A stretch of DNA of 64,000 nucleotides from Polychytrium aggregatum. Lineage: Eukaryota; Chytridiomycota; Chytridiomycetes; Polychytriales. Within the stretch, counting starts at the first letter, position 1. Each line of letters starts with the position of its first letter. Below, piece after piece: positions 1,940-53,940 of this stretch. The stretch is from NCBI RefSeq assembly GCF_025602895.1, contig NW_026516208.1:62001-126000 (forward strand). The letters run 5' to 3'. The translations under genes were made by a program, and so were the position numbers. The notes beneath the pieces are model-generated. The model worked only from the letters and a program-made list of their open reading frames with translations, did not search any database and was not told the origin of the DNA.

Positions 1940-3486
1940 CTAGACCAGTGTATTGGCAGGAGGATTCACGAGCAGTGAGGTAATCGGCTTGCCGGTGATC
2001 CAGCTCGTGGGTGGCTGGCCTGGACGAGGAGCAAACCAGTAATACCACCAATGCGATGTTGGCACCGACACGGGCGGGCGAGTCTGCACGGCCACTCCGA
2101 TAGCAGCCAGGATGCCAACCATCGACACGAATGCCCAGATGGCCCCTGGGTAGAATTGAGGCGACGGAAGCGGGCCCATCATGGCCATGCCCAGCAGCTC
2201 CAGGAATCCCGTTCGGGCAAAGACGTCCACTCCAACCGCAACCAGGAGCGAGCCCACAAAGGCGGAGCCACAGGCGACAATCAGTCGCTCGACCCAGAAC
2301 ATGACCACGATGCCAAGCATCGAGATCAAAAGCGTGTAGATGATGTGGCTGGTGTGGTCAAGGATGGATCCGACTCCGAGGATGAGGATATACTGGGCGA
2401 GGGCATACCCCGTCACCAGGCCGATCATGATGGTCCCAAAGGTCACATAGCGCATGAAGACCATGGCCCCCAGGAACCCTGCCAAATCGCATAGGATGAT
2501 GTAGGCCCAGTCGCCGTTGGGCCCGAAGCTGAGGCGTTCCGAAATCGCATGGAGGATATGGAAGACGATGAGTCCTGGTTGGGCAGTGGAGGAAGAGAGA
2601 AAGGAAGGGACGGATGAGAGAAAGAGTGAAGGAGGAAGAGTAATGCGTGGCCATGAGTCAGTGTCGTGTCGTTCTCAGAGGCCTTTGGCGTGTGCTGGGG
2701 TGGACGCATTTGCCTGCAATGCATCCAAAGGCTTTTGAGTATGGGAACCGCCACATGCCTCCGAAAAGGCTTCCGGCCACGAACAGCGTTGGGTTGTTGG
2801 ATCTCAGGCCCCAAAAGCAGAAGGTAATGCCGGCAATCAGGAACAGAATCGATTCGATTGCCAGGGCAGCTGTCAGCGGACGGGTCGCTTCAGGGAAAAC
2901 GCAGAGACAAGGACGGTGTGGAGCTTGAGCGGTCAGAGTCTACGGCACTAACAATGACGCAGTCCAACCATTCGCAGTGATTCTTGGAAGGACTCGACGG
3001 CGTCCATGTATCAGCATGAGGGGCGACAGCAGAGGCATCTCTGGAGGGGTGCAGCCAACCAGCCAGCCGCGTCGCGTTCTGATGCAAGGGGCTGCCAGCC
3101 GGACTGCCAGGGTCGGGAGAGAGCCACGGCGACAGCACCCCTGGATTGCAGCCCAGGCCCGAGCTCGCTATTCCAGGCAAGCAGCGGGCCGGTGAAGTGA
3201 GAGGTGAGGGAGGATGGATGGGTGGAGAGAGGCTCGCGGACTTACAGAATACGTAGACCGTCACGGACACAGCAGACAAGCCCCAAGGATTGCTCATGCC
3301 GCCTGAGACGATATCTGGATTGCCGTCCGTCGAGTTGGTGATAGCGTCCCGGACGGCAAAGGCGGGGAGCGCATTCTTGGAGGACCTGCGAAGCGCGGCC
3401 GAGGTCGCGGGAAAGGCGCTGGCTGTGGTCGAGAGAAGGGCAACCAAGACAATGATGAGGAATGCACTCGCTCGAGAGCCGTTCAT
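1940..3486 (-). CDS. TM7S3/TM198-like multi-pass membrane protein
   Basis: Three exons were reconstructed on the minus strand: 3486-3246, 2869-2759 and 2574-1940. The start (MNGSRASAFLIIVLVALLS) gives a clear signal peptide. A short luminal segment is followed by about seven hydrophobic helices with the Gly-rich spacing of the TM7S3/TM198 (DUF4203) family (LFVAGSLFGG, then LIVFHIL, YIILCDLAGFLGAMVF). Intron 1 (3245-2870) has a normal GTAAGT donor. For intron 2 (2758-2575) the frame closes only with an AG|GCATGT donor, a GC-AG intron. The tail is Pro/Trp-rich. Substrate and cellular role are unknown. The family assignment comes from helix pattern and glycine motifs, not from catalytic residues. 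Confidence 0.65.
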
Positions 3487-27117: not shown

Positions 27118-27856
27118 CAGTCAATCCAATAAAAAACGGGACACCCATGATTTTGACGATTGATTAAATATTTTGCTACCCAATACAATCGCGCGCTGGC
27201 CATGACCATTCTGTGATTTGAATCAAGGACGCCATTGTGAGCATCTGCCAGCCCAAAATGCGCTGGTTTTGAGGAGACTCACTCTTCCCCAAGGGCAGAA
27301 CCAGCCATCGTCGCTATTTTCTCGCCAGATGGCTCCCAAGAGAAAGACACCCCCCGACCCCGACCCAGGATCACCCAGTGACTCTCCTGTGGCCAAGAAA
27401 CCAACCATCAAATCATGTCCCTCCTGTGGATTGACCAACCACGTCAGACCCTTCACCAAGAAGTGCACAGCCAAGAGTCGACAGCAGCCCTGCCTCTGGC
27501 TCTGCCTCGGTCGCTGAAATGGTCAGTCAAGCACCCCCTCTAGACGAGTCCAGTGACGACACTGCCTTCCCAGCCCCCGTGGTCGAGATTCCCGCACTGT
27601 GCAAGCTGCCATACGCTGTGGGATCGAGACATCAATGCCTCAAGGAATATGATCTCGGTATGCCAGTCGATCATCACCCATGGAGATCGACCGAGTGTAT
27701 TCAAGACCATGCTTCCCAAACCAACCAAAACCACTCGATTGCCAACCAGGACGGGAAACAATCTCACGGCTTGCTCACTGGGGCCTACGGAAGTTCGGCA
27801 GGCTTCAGATAGCTGAGGCCAGAAAGTGACTGTCCCGTTTCTTTCTGGACCGACTG
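27118..27856 (+). mobile_element. Internally deleted mariner/Fanzor element (739 bp)
   Basis: Terminal inverted repeats of about 29 bases: left 27118-27146 (CAGTCAATCCAATAAAAAAC then GGGACA) and right 27828-27856 (complement CAGTCGGTCCAGAAAGAAAC then GGGACA). Both are flanked by TAG (27115-27117 and 27857-27859), consistent with TA-type target duplication. The left 100 bases match the transposase side of the 49798-53434 element, including the transposase start ATGACCATTC at 27202. Inside are the first codons of a Fanzor gene and then its last exon-like segment, with everything between deleted. It is non-autonomous. Confidence 0.85.
27329..27766 (+). pseudogene. Fanzor nuclease remnant (N- and C-terminal pieces only)
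   Basis: From the ATG at 27329 the frame reads MAPKRKTPPDPDPGS, then a CPSC..TNH...KKC zinc-knuckle-like motif, and stops at 27517. This corresponds to MPPKRK...KRCPKC..TDHERC..NKC of the larger copy. A second frame from about 27585 has HCASCHTLWDRDINASRNMI and VCQSIITHGDRPSVFKTMLPK, matching the RuvC-III segment and C-terminal end of the larger copy (VSNRDVNAARNMITVCRSIV...RLPK). The RuvC-I and RuvC-II parts are absent. It cannot encode a nuclease but keeps the 3' end of the gene where a guide RNA scaffold would lie. Confidence 0.8.
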
Positions 27857-47027: not shown

Positions 47028-48426
47028 TCAGGCCCTGTTAACCGCGGTGTCTCGGTTGGCTGTCGTGTCTCGGGCCGTTACGCTGACAGTGCCAGGCTGT
47101 CCTCCTTGACTCGAGGTGGATGAGCCATCGTCGTCGCCGCGGGCATCGACAACGCTCAGAACCAAGATAAAATGGGCTTCACGTCACAGGCGTAAGGATG
47201 AGGGTGTCGTTAGAGCCCAACCACACTTGCCACGGGGGCTGACGCTCAAGCAAAGCCATGGCAGGCAGTCCTCATGACGAGGCGATATGGCCCAAGCACA
47301 ATTTCCAAGGACTCATTGATGCCATTATCTTCCCATGCTTCTGTCACGCCGACATCTTCGCGCTGGAGCCACCGCCACTCTGACTTACATATGCACATGA
47401 TCGATCCCCTGAGATACAGTACTTTGGTCTGCAGCACAAACTCTGCGATTGCGCACGAGCTAGTGATCGTGCCCAGCAGCGCCGCCCAGCAGATTCTCCA
47501 GATTTCTCGCGAAAGAACTCTGGCAATCATCGTCTGCTTGCCGGCCTTTTGGCTGACTTTGATTGTGCTCATTTTCTTGATGTGTCCTCGCAGGAACGTG
47601 ATCATGCAGGTCGCCGTGAAGGCATCGATCGAGAGCCAGTAGAGATAGAGCACGATCTGGACCACCTGAAATGCTTGGGGATGTGAGAGCCCCTGGCAAT
47701 CGCCTGACCGAGTTGCATCGAGTTAATCGATCGTACATATCCGTGGACAAGAAACGTGCAGCCCAAGCCGGGACCGGGACAGACTCAGGACAGACTCGGG
47801 ACAGACTCGGGACAGACTCGGGACAGACTCGGGACGGAATCAAACATACCCACAAAGTTGTAGGAGGTCCAGATAAAGGCGTGGTACAGCGCAAATGAGA
47901 TCAAAATGGCGGTCCAGACAGTCACATGGATGTATTGGCGAGGGATATAGCCGGTAACGGCGACAGTCTTCCAGATTAGATAGCCGCATCGAAGGCCGTC
48001 CTTTGTGGCGACGAAGGCGGGTAAGTATATGGATCTCGCCCTTTCTCCTCTCTACCCTTCGCTCAGAGCAACTCTCTCCTGCGGGTTTGACAGCGTTTCG
48101 ACAGGCCAGAATCGAGTTCAGCTGCAGTAACCAACCTTGATAACGAACAGAAGATCTCCCGCCAGCCACATCCAGTTTGATTGGCACACCGTCATGTCGA
48201 CAAAGAACGGCGTAATCCAGTTGAGGAACAGGCCGGTGGCATCAAAGTAGACCATCACGGGAATCAAGGATTTGTAGTCATGTCGGACCTTCCACTTGCC
48301 CAGCACGATGATGACCAGCAGGGCGCAAAATGTCGGGTAGCCGCCGTAGTTTTCTGTATCCGAAAGGACCGCCAGAGGCCCTGGGAATCCTGCGCTCACT
48401 TGAACGGTTGCGTTCTGGCTCGACAT
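47028..48426 (-). CDS. Predicted seven-transmembrane protein, paralogue 1
   Basis: Four exons on the minus strand: 48426-48136, 48000-47850, about 47669-47391, and a last exon ending at 47028. The product has seven hydrophobic segments, for example YPTFCALLVIIVLGKWKV, LIPVMVYFDATGLFLNWITP, WMWLAGDLLFVIK, ILISFALYHAFIWTSYNFVG, IVLYLYWLSIDAFTATCMI, ICWAALLGTITSSCAIAEFV and ISHFILVLSVVDARG. An Asn/Ser-rich extracellular N-terminus and a hydrophilic, Ser/Thr-rich C-tail fit a receptor-like topology. I do not recognise the family; it may be lineage-specific. The downstream tandem neighbour (48737-53661) encodes a close paralogue. An intron of this gene contains an ACAGACTCGGG tandem. Confidence 0.75.
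47776..47835. repeat. (ACAGACTCGGG)n 11-mer tandem repeat
   Basis: About five copies in an intron of 7TM paralogue 1. Confidence 0.85.
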
Positions 48427-48736: not shown

Positions 48737-49797
48737 TTAATCGGTGGTAGTGGTGGTCAGATACTGGGTCGGCACCGTGGACTCCTTGCGGGCGCTTCTC
48801 GCTGCGGTGTTGGGAGAACCAGGAGCCGACGATACGCCGCCAGCACCTTGGCCATGTGCGCTGGACGATAAATCGTCCTCGCCGCGAGAGTCGATTGTGC
48901 TGAGGACAAGGATGAAATGGGCTGCCAGGGACACCCACAGTCAGCCAGAGTCGAGCGGCAGAGACGTGTGCATATGTGAACAGAGCAAGCACTCCGCTGC
49001 CACCGTCGATCCCACCGCCATCTCGCTGTAGAAGCAACTTACATATGCACATGATCGACCCACGAAGATAGAAAACCTTCGTCTGCAGCACAAACTCTGC
49101 GATGGCGCATGAACTGGTGACGAGACCAAGGCAGGCCGCCCAGCAGACTCTCCAAATCTCGCGCGAGAGCACCTTGGCCACCAGGGTCTCCTTCTTTGAC
49201 TTTGTGTTGATCTTGAGCTCCTCCATCTTCTTGAGATGGTTTCGCAAGAAAAAAATTAGACACCCTGCTGTGAAAACGTCAACCAAGAGCCAGTAGAGGT
49301 ACAATACGATCTGGACGGCTTGAAAGGCCGTGGGATAGGCGATGGCTTGGCAGTTGCCTGTCGACCATTTGGACGGTGAGTTTCCTGGTGTCAGGAACAT
49401 GGCCGCGGTGCAAATGACGATACAGAAAACGACCCGTACCTGTGAAGCTGTAGGAAGTCCAGATGAAGGCGTGGTAGAGGGCCACCGAGACGAGAAAGGC
49501 CCCGGCAACGGCATGATACACATATATGCGATCGATAATGCCGGTGACCATCACGGTCTTCCATATCAAGTAGGCACATCGGAGACCATCCTGCGGGGAT
49601 AGGCCAGGGTATCGTGAGCCCGCTGGTGGCCATGCTGCACCTCAGCCCATGCATCGCTTTGCCAGCGAGACCGGCAGTCATGAACAGAAGAGAATTCGGA
49701 GCTGGAACTACTGGTATCACAGACCAACCTTGACGGCAAAGAGGATATCCGCAGTCAAAGATATGTTGTTGAGCTGACAGGGTGTGAGCTCGATGTA

Positions 49798-49826
49798 CAC
49801 TTTATTCAGAAAAAAACGGGACAATA
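49798..49826. repeat. Terminal inverted repeat, Fanzor side
   Basis: CACTTTATTCAGAAAAAAAC followed by GGGACA. It pairs with 53406-53434 at matching spacing; the strongest block is AAAAAACGGGACA. Confidence 0.85.
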
Positions 49827-50000
49827 TAGCCGTTTCCATGAACATGTAGTATGTGCTGTGCTTGCGTCAAGCAAAGCCACAAGAAATAAAACAGATCACT
49901 TTGGCAGCCTCCGAGTGAAGACCGCCGATCGCTCTCCGATCTCCACAATCGACCTGCATACTGTGATCATGTTGCGCGCCGCATTGACGTCGCGATTCGA
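49798..50000 (-). ncRNA. Candidate Fanzor guide RNA (omega-RNA) locus
   Basis: Placed only by analogy. In TnpB and characterised Fanzor elements the guide RNA scaffold overlaps the end of the nuclease gene and runs to the element end, and the guide is the adjoining flank. Here that interval is the last roughly 100 coding bases of Fanzor plus the 98-base 3' region. I did not establish a fold. Confidence 0.25.
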
Positions 50001-52268
50001 CACTGTCCGGCAGCTGGGATTCTTGCAGCTCCTGACAAAGTGGGAATTCGCAACACTGGGCGCATCGAGTCCTTCCAACCGAACTGGCTCCAGGTACTTG
50101 GAGCACACCTGCGAGGTGTTGAACTCGTTCGTCGAGGCCACCTTGACGCTTCCGTGAGGGTGATTGGGACGGCGTCGGTGGTGCTCGAACTGCTCAAAGT
50201 ACTGAGCAAACCGCTGCCTCCGAGGGCTGAATGCATAGCCCTTGCCTTGTCGCCATGACGCATTGCCAAAGGCGATCACCACATCGGTCCGTATCGGGGC
50301 GTGCTTCAGGACGGCCTTGCACATCCTGTCGACGGCCACTTGGCGCCTCTTGTGGCCCGTGAATCGATGGTGGCGAGTCTTCTTGCCAAGGTGGAAGTCG
50401 AGCTGCACTCGCAGCTCCGGTCGCAGGACATGGGTGAGATGGACCTTGAAAGCCTCCGAGGACGACACCTTGGGCGAGGGGGTGGTCGACATCCAGGTCT
50501 CGATGCTGAGTCGATACTTCATGGTGTTGTGCCACCTGGTGTTGGACGTATGGCCACACATGTGCTGATAGTGGCCATTGGAGAATGAGACCACCTCGTC
50601 TTGGTGGCCCGGTGCTTGGATGACTGCCGTGAAGATGGAGCCGACTCCAGGATCGATGCCAATCCAAGTGGTGCGATCGGGGTCTGGGTCGCCGATGTGG
50701 GCCTGGATGCGCTGCTCGGCAGTCGGAGGAGGCTCGATGGTCTCGGTGTGATCGGTTCGAGGCACAAACTTGACGAGGCCGATGGTGCATCCAATGCCAT
50801 CGGTGCTGATCTCGTAGTTGAACAGCTTCTTGTCCCTGACCCGCTCTTGGAAGAGGGAACTACGCAGCTTGAAGCAACTGCGCCAGAGACGATCCTGGTT
50901 GTTGACACCGTCCTCACCTTCTTCCTTGAGCATGTCCCAGGTGAGTCCAAGGCGTTTCTTTGGACCAAGGAGCTCCCAGAGAGTGACGGTGTCGATCTTG
51001 ACATACTTGGCCTTGGCTGTGCACAGAGGGACCATCGTGCACACGGCCGGAGGAGTGTCGAGAGCGAGCTGCTTGAGTGCCCACTTGATCCTGGATGCCA
51101 GCTTGTTGATCTTGGCCTTGGTGGTGCCGAGCTCAGACTTGGCCTTGGTGAACCTCTTGTCGTCGGAGGGAATGCCTTGGGTAGTGAGCTCGTCCAGCTT
51201 GGCCTGGCGCTGCAGCTCGGTGACTCGGAGGGCGGGCATGTCACAGTCGATCCACTTGTGGACATTGTCGACCATCTTGTCTCGGGCGAGGATTCTCACA
51301 TGGTGTGAGAGGCGATGGAGGGCCCGGAAGCGGTCCTGGTCGTTGCTGTACCGAAACTCGTCAGGATGTGGCCAAACTCGGGATAGAGGAACTCGAGATC
51401 GGCCTTGGGTGGAGTCTGCCCTGGTTTCTCGAAGAGCTCGAGACAGGCCTCGATGGCTTCGTGCTTATGCTTGTTGGCTGGGAAGACAGCAGCACAGAAG
51501 CGGCGAAGGAGTCGCCAGTAGGCCAGGTCGAGGTGGGTGGTGCAGTTGGTGGCATAGGCATTGACAGCCAGTGTGAGAAGCTGACTGTGAGCACCATCAG
51601 GCAGACGAGGGGCCGGAGGCAGGTCTGCGTGCCGAGTGGTCTGGTAGTCGCGAAAGGAAGCGACCAGATGCTCGTTGTATTTCTTGGTGTCCCTGGCCGT
51701 CGAGAGGGCATCGGCCTCGACAATCGTGAAGCATTGGCGGATGAAAGCAGGGGTGGACCTTGGAGATGACGGGGACGGGAAGATCCTGCTCGATGCACCG
51801 GAGGATGTGCAGGTTGAGCAGCCTGGGTGCCTCGAATTGGATCTGGGTCATGGCCTCGACGGTGGCCTGGATCTTGTCGCGGAGAGCGGGATTGAGACAA
51901 CAGCCGTCCATGGTCTGCTTGAAGCAGCTGAACTGAGGAGCGGATGACCTTCCATCCACGAGTGGGACGACAGAACTCTTGAGGGGCCGGTATTTGGGAC
52001 ACTTGTTGGTGTTGCAGCGTTCGTGATCGGTGCCATCGCACTTGGGACATCGCTTGCCAGTACTCGAGGAAGTAGATGGACCAGGCTCGGTGGGATCGAC
52101 ATCCATTGGATCTGCAGAAGCAGTGGTGGTGAGCGACGGAGCAACAGACGACCAAGCATGCGTGGGGTCAGAATACGAACCAGAGACAGGCTCCGACTGT
52201 GACTTGGCTTTCTTGGGCCTGGGTGGCCGAGGCTGGCCATCACCGGTACCCTTGCGCTTCGGAGGCAT
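49896..52268 (-). pseudogene. Fanzor RNA-guided nuclease, frameshifted
   Basis: The start MPPKRKGTGDGQPRPPRPKK is basic (nuclear-localisation-like) and is followed by a CPKC..TDHERC...KC zinc knuckle. The C-terminal two thirds carry a RuvC fold: WIGIDPGVGSIFTAV (RuvC-I Asp), ASTNEFNTSQVC (relocated RuvC-II Glu, the EF.TS form typical of Fanzor), a SCKNPSC half-finger and SNRDVNAARNM (RuvC-III Asp). The triad is intact. Three separate frames are needed: a one-base insertion near 51758 (AAGGTCC) and a two-base CA insertion near 51368 break the gene, and together restore phase. The codon after CSK is TAC (Tyr, 50094-50096) where TnpB/Fanzor fingers have Cys, so zinc binding is probably impaired. 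Confidence 0.88.
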
Positions 52269-52542
52269 GGGGGCAGAGGATGCTGGATGCCTGCCAGTGG
52301 TACTGGTCAGAACAGAGACTTTTTTTATCGTACAATTGCGCGATGATCAGATCAAGGCGAGATGAGGGAAGAAAGCAGCAGGACGAAGGTGTGGCATTTA
52401 TACCCGAGAGCAGGAGCCCGTCTTTGCGGGCTGGTTGGGGAAGTGACCCTGTTCAAAAATCGCCGAGAGGTTCAAGACAGGGATGTGAACGTGAGAACGG
52501 CGGCTTGATTGGAGGGGGAGCTCAACTCCAAATTGGAGGAAC

Positions 52543-53350
52543 TCAACCCCAAATCGGTGGGGACTCAACCCCAAAGAAGTTCTCGATGGGATTGAAGTCG
52601 GGCGAGGCAGGTGGGGTGAAGATCACTGACCATCCTCGGCGATCGATGCAGTCCAGGACAGCCATTGTCTTGTGCATGCTGACATTGTCCATCACAATCA
52701 CAGAGTCGTCTGGGAAGGTCGCTCGATCAAAGAACTCGACCATCGAGTGTGTCTTGAATGATGTGGGGATGTACATGCGATGCAGCACACCAGAGTGGTT
52801 GATGGCAAATGCAGCCGAGACAGACTTGTGTTTCATGTGATTGCGCTGGCGAAGCGGAGCACCCTTCGGTGAGTATCCGTAGAGAGGAAAAATGGATCTC
52901 CTGATCCCTGTCTCATCGACAAAAACGAATCGTCGTGGGTCGATGGAGCGGACCTGGTTCCTTGAACTGTGCCACTCGCTCATCTAGTCGCTTGGACTTG
53001 TAGAGGTGTGTTGCCCTCTTGTGTGAGAGACCTGCTCGCTGGATGGCAGTGTGGCAGAGTGAGAGTGATACTTTCCTCTGGAGGATGGACTCGAGCTTGC
53101 ATCGCAACACAGGACCAGTCTGGAACGGGTCCTGTTCAATCAGGGTGCGAATGACTGGACATGCCTGCTCGAAGAAAGTGGATCTGCGAGCTGGGACCCG
53201 GGATGGGTCATCCAGCTTGCATCCTCGGTGCCATCGATGGATGGTGCTCTTGGATACACTGAATATGGAGGCGACCTTACGCAGGCTATGGATGAGATCG
53301 TAGCATCGCAATGCGGCGGTGCGAAAGTCGGATGTGTGGCGAATGGTCAT
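52543..53350 (-). pseudogene. Tc1/mariner (IS630-type) DDE transposase, frameshifted and truncated
   Basis: The start MTIRHTSDFRTAALRCYDLI is followed by a helix-turn-helix (RKVASIFSVSKSTIHRWHRG) and a second HTH-like segment (LCHTAIQRAGLSHKRATHLY). An extra A near 52961 shifts the frame. The catalytic part then reads RFVFVDETG (first Asp), SVIVMDNVSMHK (second Asp) and TPPASPDFNPIEN (final acidic residue in the PIE context of the Tc1/IS630 family). The frame stops at 52543 soon after this motif, whereas family members usually continue for 30-60 residues, so the C-terminus is lost. It is probably inactive in this copy. Confidence 0.88.
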
Positions 53351-53405
53351 GGCCAGCGCGCGATAACATTGGGTAACAAAATATTCGATGAATGGTCAAA
53401 AACCC

Positions 53406-53434
53406 GGGTGTCCCGTTTTTTATTGGATTGCCTG
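53406..53434. repeat. Terminal inverted repeat, transposase side
   Basis: The complement reads CAGGCAATCCAATAAAAAAC followed by GGGACACCC. It is nearly identical to the left end of the element at 27118. Confidence 0.88.
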
Positions 53435-53825
53435 TAACACGGAGTGATCCAGTTGAGAAACAGACCCATGGCGTCAAAGTACACCATCAAGGGGATAATA
53501 GATTTGAAGTCCAGTGCCACCTTCCACTTGTTGAGGACCACAATCAAAAGCAGGGCACAGAAGGTTGGGTAGCCTCCATGGTTCTCCGTGTCCTGCAAGA
53601 CGTAGAGAAATGCTTGAAGACCGGAAGTGATGGTGGTTGAGCCGCTGCCGCTGGAGGACATTCGTCGAATAAGCTGACGGATTTGAGATCGAAAAGGTAT
53701 CGGAATTCCGAGCTGCGTGGCACTCGAGGAAGGCAGGGGGGTTGAGATCCCATAGCAGCCCTATATATAGTTGGCAAGTACACTTTATGAGTATTACTGG
53801 GCATTGTTGCGAACATGGTCTTCGT

Positions 53826-53940
53826 CCTGAACCATTGAACCATTGAATCATTGAGCCATTGAGCCATTGAGCCATTGAGCCATTGAGCTATTGAGCTATT
53901 GAACCATTGAGTCATTGAGTCATTGGGCCATTGAGCCGGA
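53826..53940. repeat. (ATTGAGCC)n-type tandem repeat
   Basis: About ten variant 9-10-base units (CATTGAGCC, CATTGAACC, TATTGAGC) in the upstream region of 7TM paralogue 2. Confidence 0.85.

Follow-up and report, generated by a model that had tools for sequence, protein, structure and literature searches.

A TTA Flank Signature and Short Derivatives in a Fanzor1-Carrying Tc1/mariner Transposon of Polychytrium aggregatum

A single TA-flanked transposon of the Tc1/mariner superfamily, with a transposase gene followed by a Fanzor1 gene, occupies positions 49798-53434 on the minus strand of a 64,000-nucleotide stretch of the Polychytrium aggregatum genome (NCBI RefSeq assembly GCF_025602895.1, contig NW_026516208.1, positions 62,001 to 126,000; hereafter the window). 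The explanation that best accounts for this element and its relatives, referred to here as family A, and that is favored with some reservation, is that the Fanzor serves as an RNA-guided “return ticket”, restoring the transposon to the empty site that it has left. A 2013 paper (Bao and Jurka, PMC3627910) had already reported Fanzor1 genes alongside Mariner transposases, as well as chimeric elements and relatives that carry a Fanzor only. What is added here is a TTA flank, short derivatives or “ghosts”, a contrast in the intactness of the two genes, a chimeric family, and differences between elements at the same site. The surroundings of the copies offer clues to the use of the nuclease for its transposon.

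Structure and Coding Content of the Element

The 26-bp terminal inverted repeats (TIRs) agree at 19 positions, with an identical inner 13 (AAAAAACGGGACA) and a divergent outer half. A first-pass annotation had described one element between TA dinucleotides, with a DDE transposase and a RuvC-type Fanzor on the same strand, and sequence inspection and the domain matches given below bear this out; the ends are inverted as it proposed, but their length of about 29 bp was overstated because the outer half differs. Among 30 copies fetched for their close match to the full-length element, TA flanked the 5′ side in all 30 and the 3′ side in 29.

The transposase frame of the window matches PF13358 (DDE_3) with 76 bits (cut-off 28.6), and an intact copy of 310 amino acids (aa), in which the catalytic triad is D145-D221-E256 (DD34E), does so with 74.1 bits. 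Tc1/mariner transposases are of the DDE/D type, in which about 34 residues separate the last two acids; DD34E is Tc1-like, and DD34D is characteristic of mariner proper. The window element is a member of this superfamily by its TIRs, its TA duplication, and its DD34E/PF13358 transposase. A homologue search with the transposase gave 33 matches, the best two at 35% and 36%, covering 88% and 99% of the query, respectively. In the window this gene is split into two frames and ends shortly past the catalytic E; with the frames of both genes broken and the transposase C-terminus gone, the copy is inactive. At 52517-52575, where the C-terminus is lost, a 16-nt direct repeat (GGAACTCAACCCCAAA-like, D1) occurs three times.

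The open stretch 51299-49896 of the window Fanzor contains RuvC-I, a zinc ribbon, and RuvC-III, and PF07282 scores 31.5 bits in this frame and 34.4 in an intact copy (cut-off 26.3). The Fanzor1 motif given in PMC3627910, D-X(125-275)-[TS][TS]-X-X-C4 zinc finger-X(5-50)-RD, is matched by D539, TS718-719 (gap 178), C722 C725 C748 C753, and R759 D760. Residues D539-P540-G541 and E715 are invariant across four aligned Fanzors (one of family A and three of the chimeric family AB described below), and a DPG signature and a repositioned glutamate are listed as Fanzor1 hallmarks in PMC10711439. Protein length and transposon type likewise fit Fanzor1. In weak alignments, E541 and D606 of SpuFz1 (numbering of PMC10432273, residue offsets computed) coincide with E715 and D760. 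A PDB sequence search gave no match at E 0.01; with E values up to 10 it returned SpuFz1 (0.31) and an antibody (2), and a second search LaTranC (0.12) and SpuFz1 (0.14). None of 7993 scored candidates in a homologue search with the intact Fanzor reached E 0.001, a search of viral contigs gave no match, and the AlphaFold model of the 467-aa window Fanzor frame was too poor, with a predicted local distance difference test score (pLDDT) of 40.

Insertion Site and the T Preceding the 5′ TA

Deleting the element plus one TA in silico repairs the host exon, as the first-pass annotation had claimed; the resulting peptide aligns without gaps with the paralogue at 48342-48130 (66% over 71 aa). T directly precedes the 5′ TA in 29 of the 30 fetched copies. 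When copies with shared flanks were merged, 25 independent insertions remained, 24 of them with T at -3, against a T-before-TA background of 13.4% in the window, while the 3′ flank had A at +3 in only 4/25 (Fisher 7e-9 versus the 5′ T); the other 5′-flank positions of these 25 copies displayed no further base preference. Genome-wide, in counts that include haplotig duplicates, exact 5′ ends comprised at least 100 with T and 6 with another base, and exact 3′ ends had A in 40 of 210 and a different base in 170. An origin of the T within the element was rejected, since the repaired exon would lose its reading frame without it; the T was therefore a target base before this insertion. A TTA target duplication was also rejected because the 3′ flank reads TA plus any base.

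By analogy, the target-adjacent motif (TAM) of the family A Fanzor is predicted to be TTA, based on this 5′ flank signature, on the precedent of Spizellomyces punctatus, where a conserved CA before the 5′ inverted repeat (IR) forms with TA the measured TAM CATA, and on the TAM TTAAN of GtFz1 (both in Saito 2023, PMC10432273). One passage of PMC11423790 swaps CATA and TTAA between the two enzymes, and a later one gives TTAA for GtFz1.

Copy Number, Modularity, and Related Families

In a whole-genome DNA search with the window element, in which the best 40 of 1238 candidates were scored, 39 copies were 95-97% identical to it and one was 89% identical; 15 matched end to end, a further 23 matched as far as roughly 2706-2733, the majority of them resuming at 2769 after additional sequence, and two were partial (L016 and the 89% copy). 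Element ends with up to three mismatches numbered 382 for the 5′ end and 267 for the 3′ end, with 0 for reversed control patterns. A chance origin is dismissed on the strength of these controls and of the identity of the 39 copies; copy and end counts are inflated by the haplotigs in the assembly. Among the best 91 of 1212 matches scored in a Fanzor protein search, 82 were stop-free in the matched stretch, a share biased by the scoring of best matches, and a search with the transposase N-terminus had the best 150 of 466 scored. The genome-wide search for the TIR pair and both proteins that had been suggested has thus revealed hundreds of ends and many copies.

All 30 fetched copies contained Fanzor DNA, but they had been picked for their similarity to the full-length element. 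Pairing drew on 100 5′ and 100 3′ ends among the matches listed and yielded 39 elements, of which 31 had the two-gene size of 3.4-3.8 kb, two measured 1.1 kb, and six were shorter than 400 bp. These 31 elements support the earlier claim of a single mobile unit of transposase and Fanzor, but the unit is modular, as copies with a truncated transposase, ghosts lacking any whole gene, and an exchange of the Fanzor demonstrate. A C-terminally truncated transposase was common to 12 independent copies, 9 of which had an intact Fanzor. Two family A elements (L028 on C99 and L022 on C113) lie in or beside Fanzor remnants of other families and are nested insertions.

The exchange is seen in the chimeric family AB, in which positions 1-1017 (the end and the transposase) are 95.4-95.8% identical to A and the aligned remainder 58-61% in four fetched copies, with the similarity falling off at the transposase stop codon. 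At the protein level, the AB transposase is 95.5-96.1% identical to that of A in three of the four copies (the fourth is broken), and the Fanzor 42% (three aligned proteins). The deleted copy at 27118, which had been taken to represent the same element, has its genes in the same order. It is, however, a member of a sister family, B, with a different Fanzor and a 3′ TIR unlike that of A. The second Fanzor family (L059-L062 and 27118-27856 of the window) had at least 150 scored matches, 83-100% identical to the query, and some of its frames are open over about 890-1011 aa. More than 200 Fanzor genes or remnants are present in the assembly, haplotigs included and the 91 scored family A matches counted in.

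Short Derivatives and the 3′ End

The short derivatives consist of six ghosts of 279-380 bp, without any whole gene, and the two elements of 1.1 kb. In all eight, 97-663 nt remain at the 5′ end, and at the 3′ end the final 166 nt or more, the 3′ breakpoints lying near 3292, 3525, and 3573. They had been chosen from the list of ends with T and were therefore uninformative on that base; judged by its spacing, one of the 6 non-T ends belongs to a ghost as well. Past the Fanzor stop, the noncoding stretch deviates from the majority sequence by 0.75%, compared with 2.6-3.5% in other untranslated parts and 1.3-2.6% at the nearest 4-fold sites. In predicted folds of 77 nt, the element end and a target-site duplication base are paired in 11 of 12 sequences (5 of A, 2/3 of B, and 4 of AB, the last identical over the folded stretch). 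The retention of this end by ghosts and some of the folds speak for a candidate structured RNA there, against which stand the weak z-scores and the missing common fold given below; the end pairing, if real, could account for the differing outer halves of the TIRs. An Rfam search of the window gave no match.

Intact Frames and Selection

Intactness was compared in 26 copies, the second members of four same-site pairs having been dropped. The Fanzor was intact in 19/26 and the transposase in 4/26 (p 6e-5). The ratio of nonsynonymous to synonymous polymorphism (pN/pS) and the number of stops were obtained from 24 copies in two groups (L016 and L017 excluded). For the Fanzor, pN/pS was 0.38 in both groups, and 2 and 5 stops were observed against 34.7 and 39.7 expected if neutral, a total of 7 versus 74.4. 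Since pN/pS is low and stops are far below expectation for the transposase also (values below), both genes show selection; Fanzor frames persist more often.

Differences between Elements at the Same Site

The assembly appears to contain haplotigs, two contig pairs being 99.87-99.93% identical at 26-30 kb from their elements. Two family A elements that share a site may be 3-4% apart, although their flanks differ by at most 0.33%. In pair L005/L011, 4/2994 flank and 115/3622 element positions differ; in L007/L026, where one member has the truncated transposase and the other the long form, 5/1970 and 160/3631; and in L021/L025, 0/1992 and 28/3735, all within the first 2.1 kb and none beyond. The pair L023/L027 has no excess (flanks 2/1991, element 1/3738). 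Copies L013 and L029 have only the 3′ flank in common (0/1498), with unrelated 5′ flanks and 88/3661 differences in the element, the result of either copy-to-copy recombination or misassembly. A pair of 380-bp ghosts (L035/L036) differs at 8/379 element and 0/277 flank positions, and two same-site pairs of B/AB, a small control, have 1/3709 and 0/4498 differences over element and flanks. In addition, A copies show patches with differing nearest relatives, which suggest gene conversion among them.

The main rival, that the wrong repeat copy was placed at these sites by the assembler, is a serious competitor, if somewhat less than an even bet. High-copy repeats about 96% alike are error-prone in assembly, contigs C62 and C132 terminate at the window insertion site, and both the single common flank of L013/L029 and the A pair without excess difference would fit such errors. 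However, the ghosts, at 380 bp, differ too, the B/AB pairs are near-identical, and the mosaic of L021/L025 confines its differences to one part of the element, all of which argue against assembly error.

Proposed Mechanism and Alternatives

In the return-ticket explanation, the DD34E transposase would excise the element from, and insert it into, TA sites, and the Fanzor would bind an RNA from the element 3′ end whose guide would be the host DNA directly past that end. T-TA would adjoin the guide match only in the empty site; because the terminal G of the element stands in place of this T when the site is filled, the filled copy would be spared from cutting. A cut in the empty site would be repaired from a filled template, and since repair would copy that template, the element would survive its own jump. 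Because this one genome combines two-gene elements and ghosts with paired haplotypes and a sister family whose Fanzor has been swapped, it serves as a test bed and makes the empty-site model directly predictive: the TAM should be TTA, the RNA should derive from the last ~100 nt, and the guide should correspond to the 3′ flank.

Several observations weigh against this reading. No empty allele of the window site was found; the two contigs that hold its flanks, C132 and C62, each end within 1-2 bases of the insertion site and speak neither for nor against such an allele. The intact-frame contrast is partly inflated, because the sample was matched to a copy with a truncated transposase: the window-copy query favored copies of this type (12/26), and in the other 14 the Fanzor was intact in 10/14 and the transposase in 4/14 (p 0.057). 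Selection is also seen on the transposase, with pN/pS of 0.30 and 0.29 and 1 and 1 stops versus 9.0 and 9.5 expected, a total of 2 versus 18.5. The low divergence past the Fanzor stop is by itself no proof of an RNA, because positions 61-480 are likewise little diverged (0.4-1.2%). Fold z-scores vary with length, from -0.75 (70 nt) to -2.6 in A and from 0.25 to -4.2 in B, the element end is frequently unpaired in longer B folds, and RNAalifold gave no noteworthy common fold for the 12 sequences of A, B, and AB (-1.6). Finally, the T is not simply tied to the Fanzor family, because AB, whose Fanzor is of the B type, lacks the T preference (the base before TA at 11 exact ends was T in 5, A in 3, C in 2, and G in 1), while old B copies (CAGTC-type ends, B-type Fanzor) had T in 7/10. 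The AB end pattern omitted ends with G at -5, and L059, lacking a 5′ TA, is outside the 11; the old B sample comprised 20 fetched pieces, 13 of them independent by eye, of which 10 had a clean TA and were counted.

These last counts bear on the possibility, rather unlikely but a real competitor, that the one-sided T reflects a preference of the transposase, with asymmetric ends inserting in one orientation at TTA and the Fanzor TAM adapted to it or uninvolved. The outer halves of the TIRs do differ between the two ends, and A (24/25) and old B both show the T despite different Fanzors. Target preference in Tc1/mariner is usually symmetric, however, and AB, with a near-identical transposase, has the T in 5/11, or 3/8 when ends with identical three flank letters are merged on that criterion alone (p = 0.001 versus A either way). 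This contrast speaks against the transposase as the sole source of the T, although AB is an imperfect control, because its 5′ end (CAGCC, not CAGGC) and its 3′ end differ and its T frequency is not significantly different from that of old B (p 0.34).

A bolder reading, for which the odds are judged lower still, is that family A is an RNA-guided copy-back element, whose Fanzor would cut sites that are empty or damaged wherever TTA adjoins a guide match, after which repair from dispersed copies would overwrite residents; near-identical flanks around different elements would then be expected. It is improbable that the Fanzor is a passenger that takes no part in restoring the donor site and is kept for another use, such as regulation of the host or action against rival copies: its role is given as unknown in PMC10432273 and module exchange implies that it is not bound to one transposase, but the position of the T and the ghost-retained 3′ end are what an empty-site cutter would require, and the Fanzor is intact in 9/12 copies with a truncated transposase.

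Comparison with Known Systems

Like PUl-1 and PGv-1 as described in PMC3627910, the family A element carries a transposase and Fanzor1 within TIRs and a TA duplication; Fanzor-only relatives and chimeras with a common 5′ transposase part and a differing 3′ part are reported there as well. By that description, four related, mostly viral elements are single-copy, in contrast to the hundreds of ends found here, and the present genome differs in its 19/26 intact Fanzor frames among the sampled copies and in having an almost unchanged transposase followed by either of two Fanzor modules. SPu-1 of S. punctatus, which encodes SpuFz1, is likewise a TA-flanked IR element in which the bases before the 5′ TA form part of the TAM, with ghost loci retaining the RNA part only and a 75-nt scaffold at the 3′ IR (PMC10432273). 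Unlike the element described here, SPu-1 had no transposase found within its IRs according to the same source, and the predicted TAM TTA and the 790-aa Fanzor differ from CATA and 638 aa; the SpuFz1 structure (8gkh) was one of two matches in each of the PDB searches, at a non-significant E of 0.14-0.31. The Fanzor1 of ascovirus SfAV resides in another element type, and its RNA expression has been demonstrated (PMC10711439), whereas the RNA proposed here is a prediction.

The first-pass annotation had also likened the unit to TnpB and its bacterial transposases, an analogy that gains from the TTA flank signature and the ghost-kept 3′ end. In the bacterial IS200/IS605 elements, unlike family A, the transposase is the HUH enzyme TnpA, which sets the target motif. 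As with TnpB, guided by the 3′ flank to cut the element-free site in the proposal presented in PMC10432273, the Fanzor may act on the empty site. The titles and abstract openings of the literature surveyed held nothing on same-site element replacement or on a TTA signature in such elements.

Features of the Window

Table 1. Positions of the element, its parts, and related features in the window.
Feature	Position	Strand	Remarks
Whole family A element, inactive copy (transposase, then Fanzor)	49798..53434	-	Sequence inspection, genome-wide comparison
5′ TIR	53409..53434	-	26 bp
3′ TIR	49798..49823	-	Outer half unlike 5′ TIR, paired in predicted folds of the family
TA target-site duplication, element 5′ side	53435..53436	.	
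TA target-site duplication, element 3′ side	49796..49797	.	
Conserved T preceding the 5′ TA (predicted TAM TTA), host base	53437..53437	-	24/25 independent copies
DD34E Tc1/mariner transposase	52543..53350	-	Frame-broken (53350-52913 + 52983-52543), without C-terminus past catalytic E
Fanzor1 gene	49896..52268	-	790 aa when intact; three pieces by frame shifts in window copy
Candidate omegaRNA region	49798..49963	-	Last 166 nt, kept in 8/8 short derivatives; 49798-49895 noncoding
Host exon, 5′ part, open frame	53437..53661	-	
Host exon, 3′ part	49723..49795	-	Stretch aligning with paralogue
Uninterrupted paralogue of the disrupted exon	48130..48342	-	66% over 71 aa
Family B element, internally deleted	27118..27856	+	Transposase start, Fanzor N- and C-terminal parts (by eye); 3′ TIR unlike A

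A short tandem repeat, “attgagcc”, was observed by eye at 53840-53930, just 5′ of the host gene.

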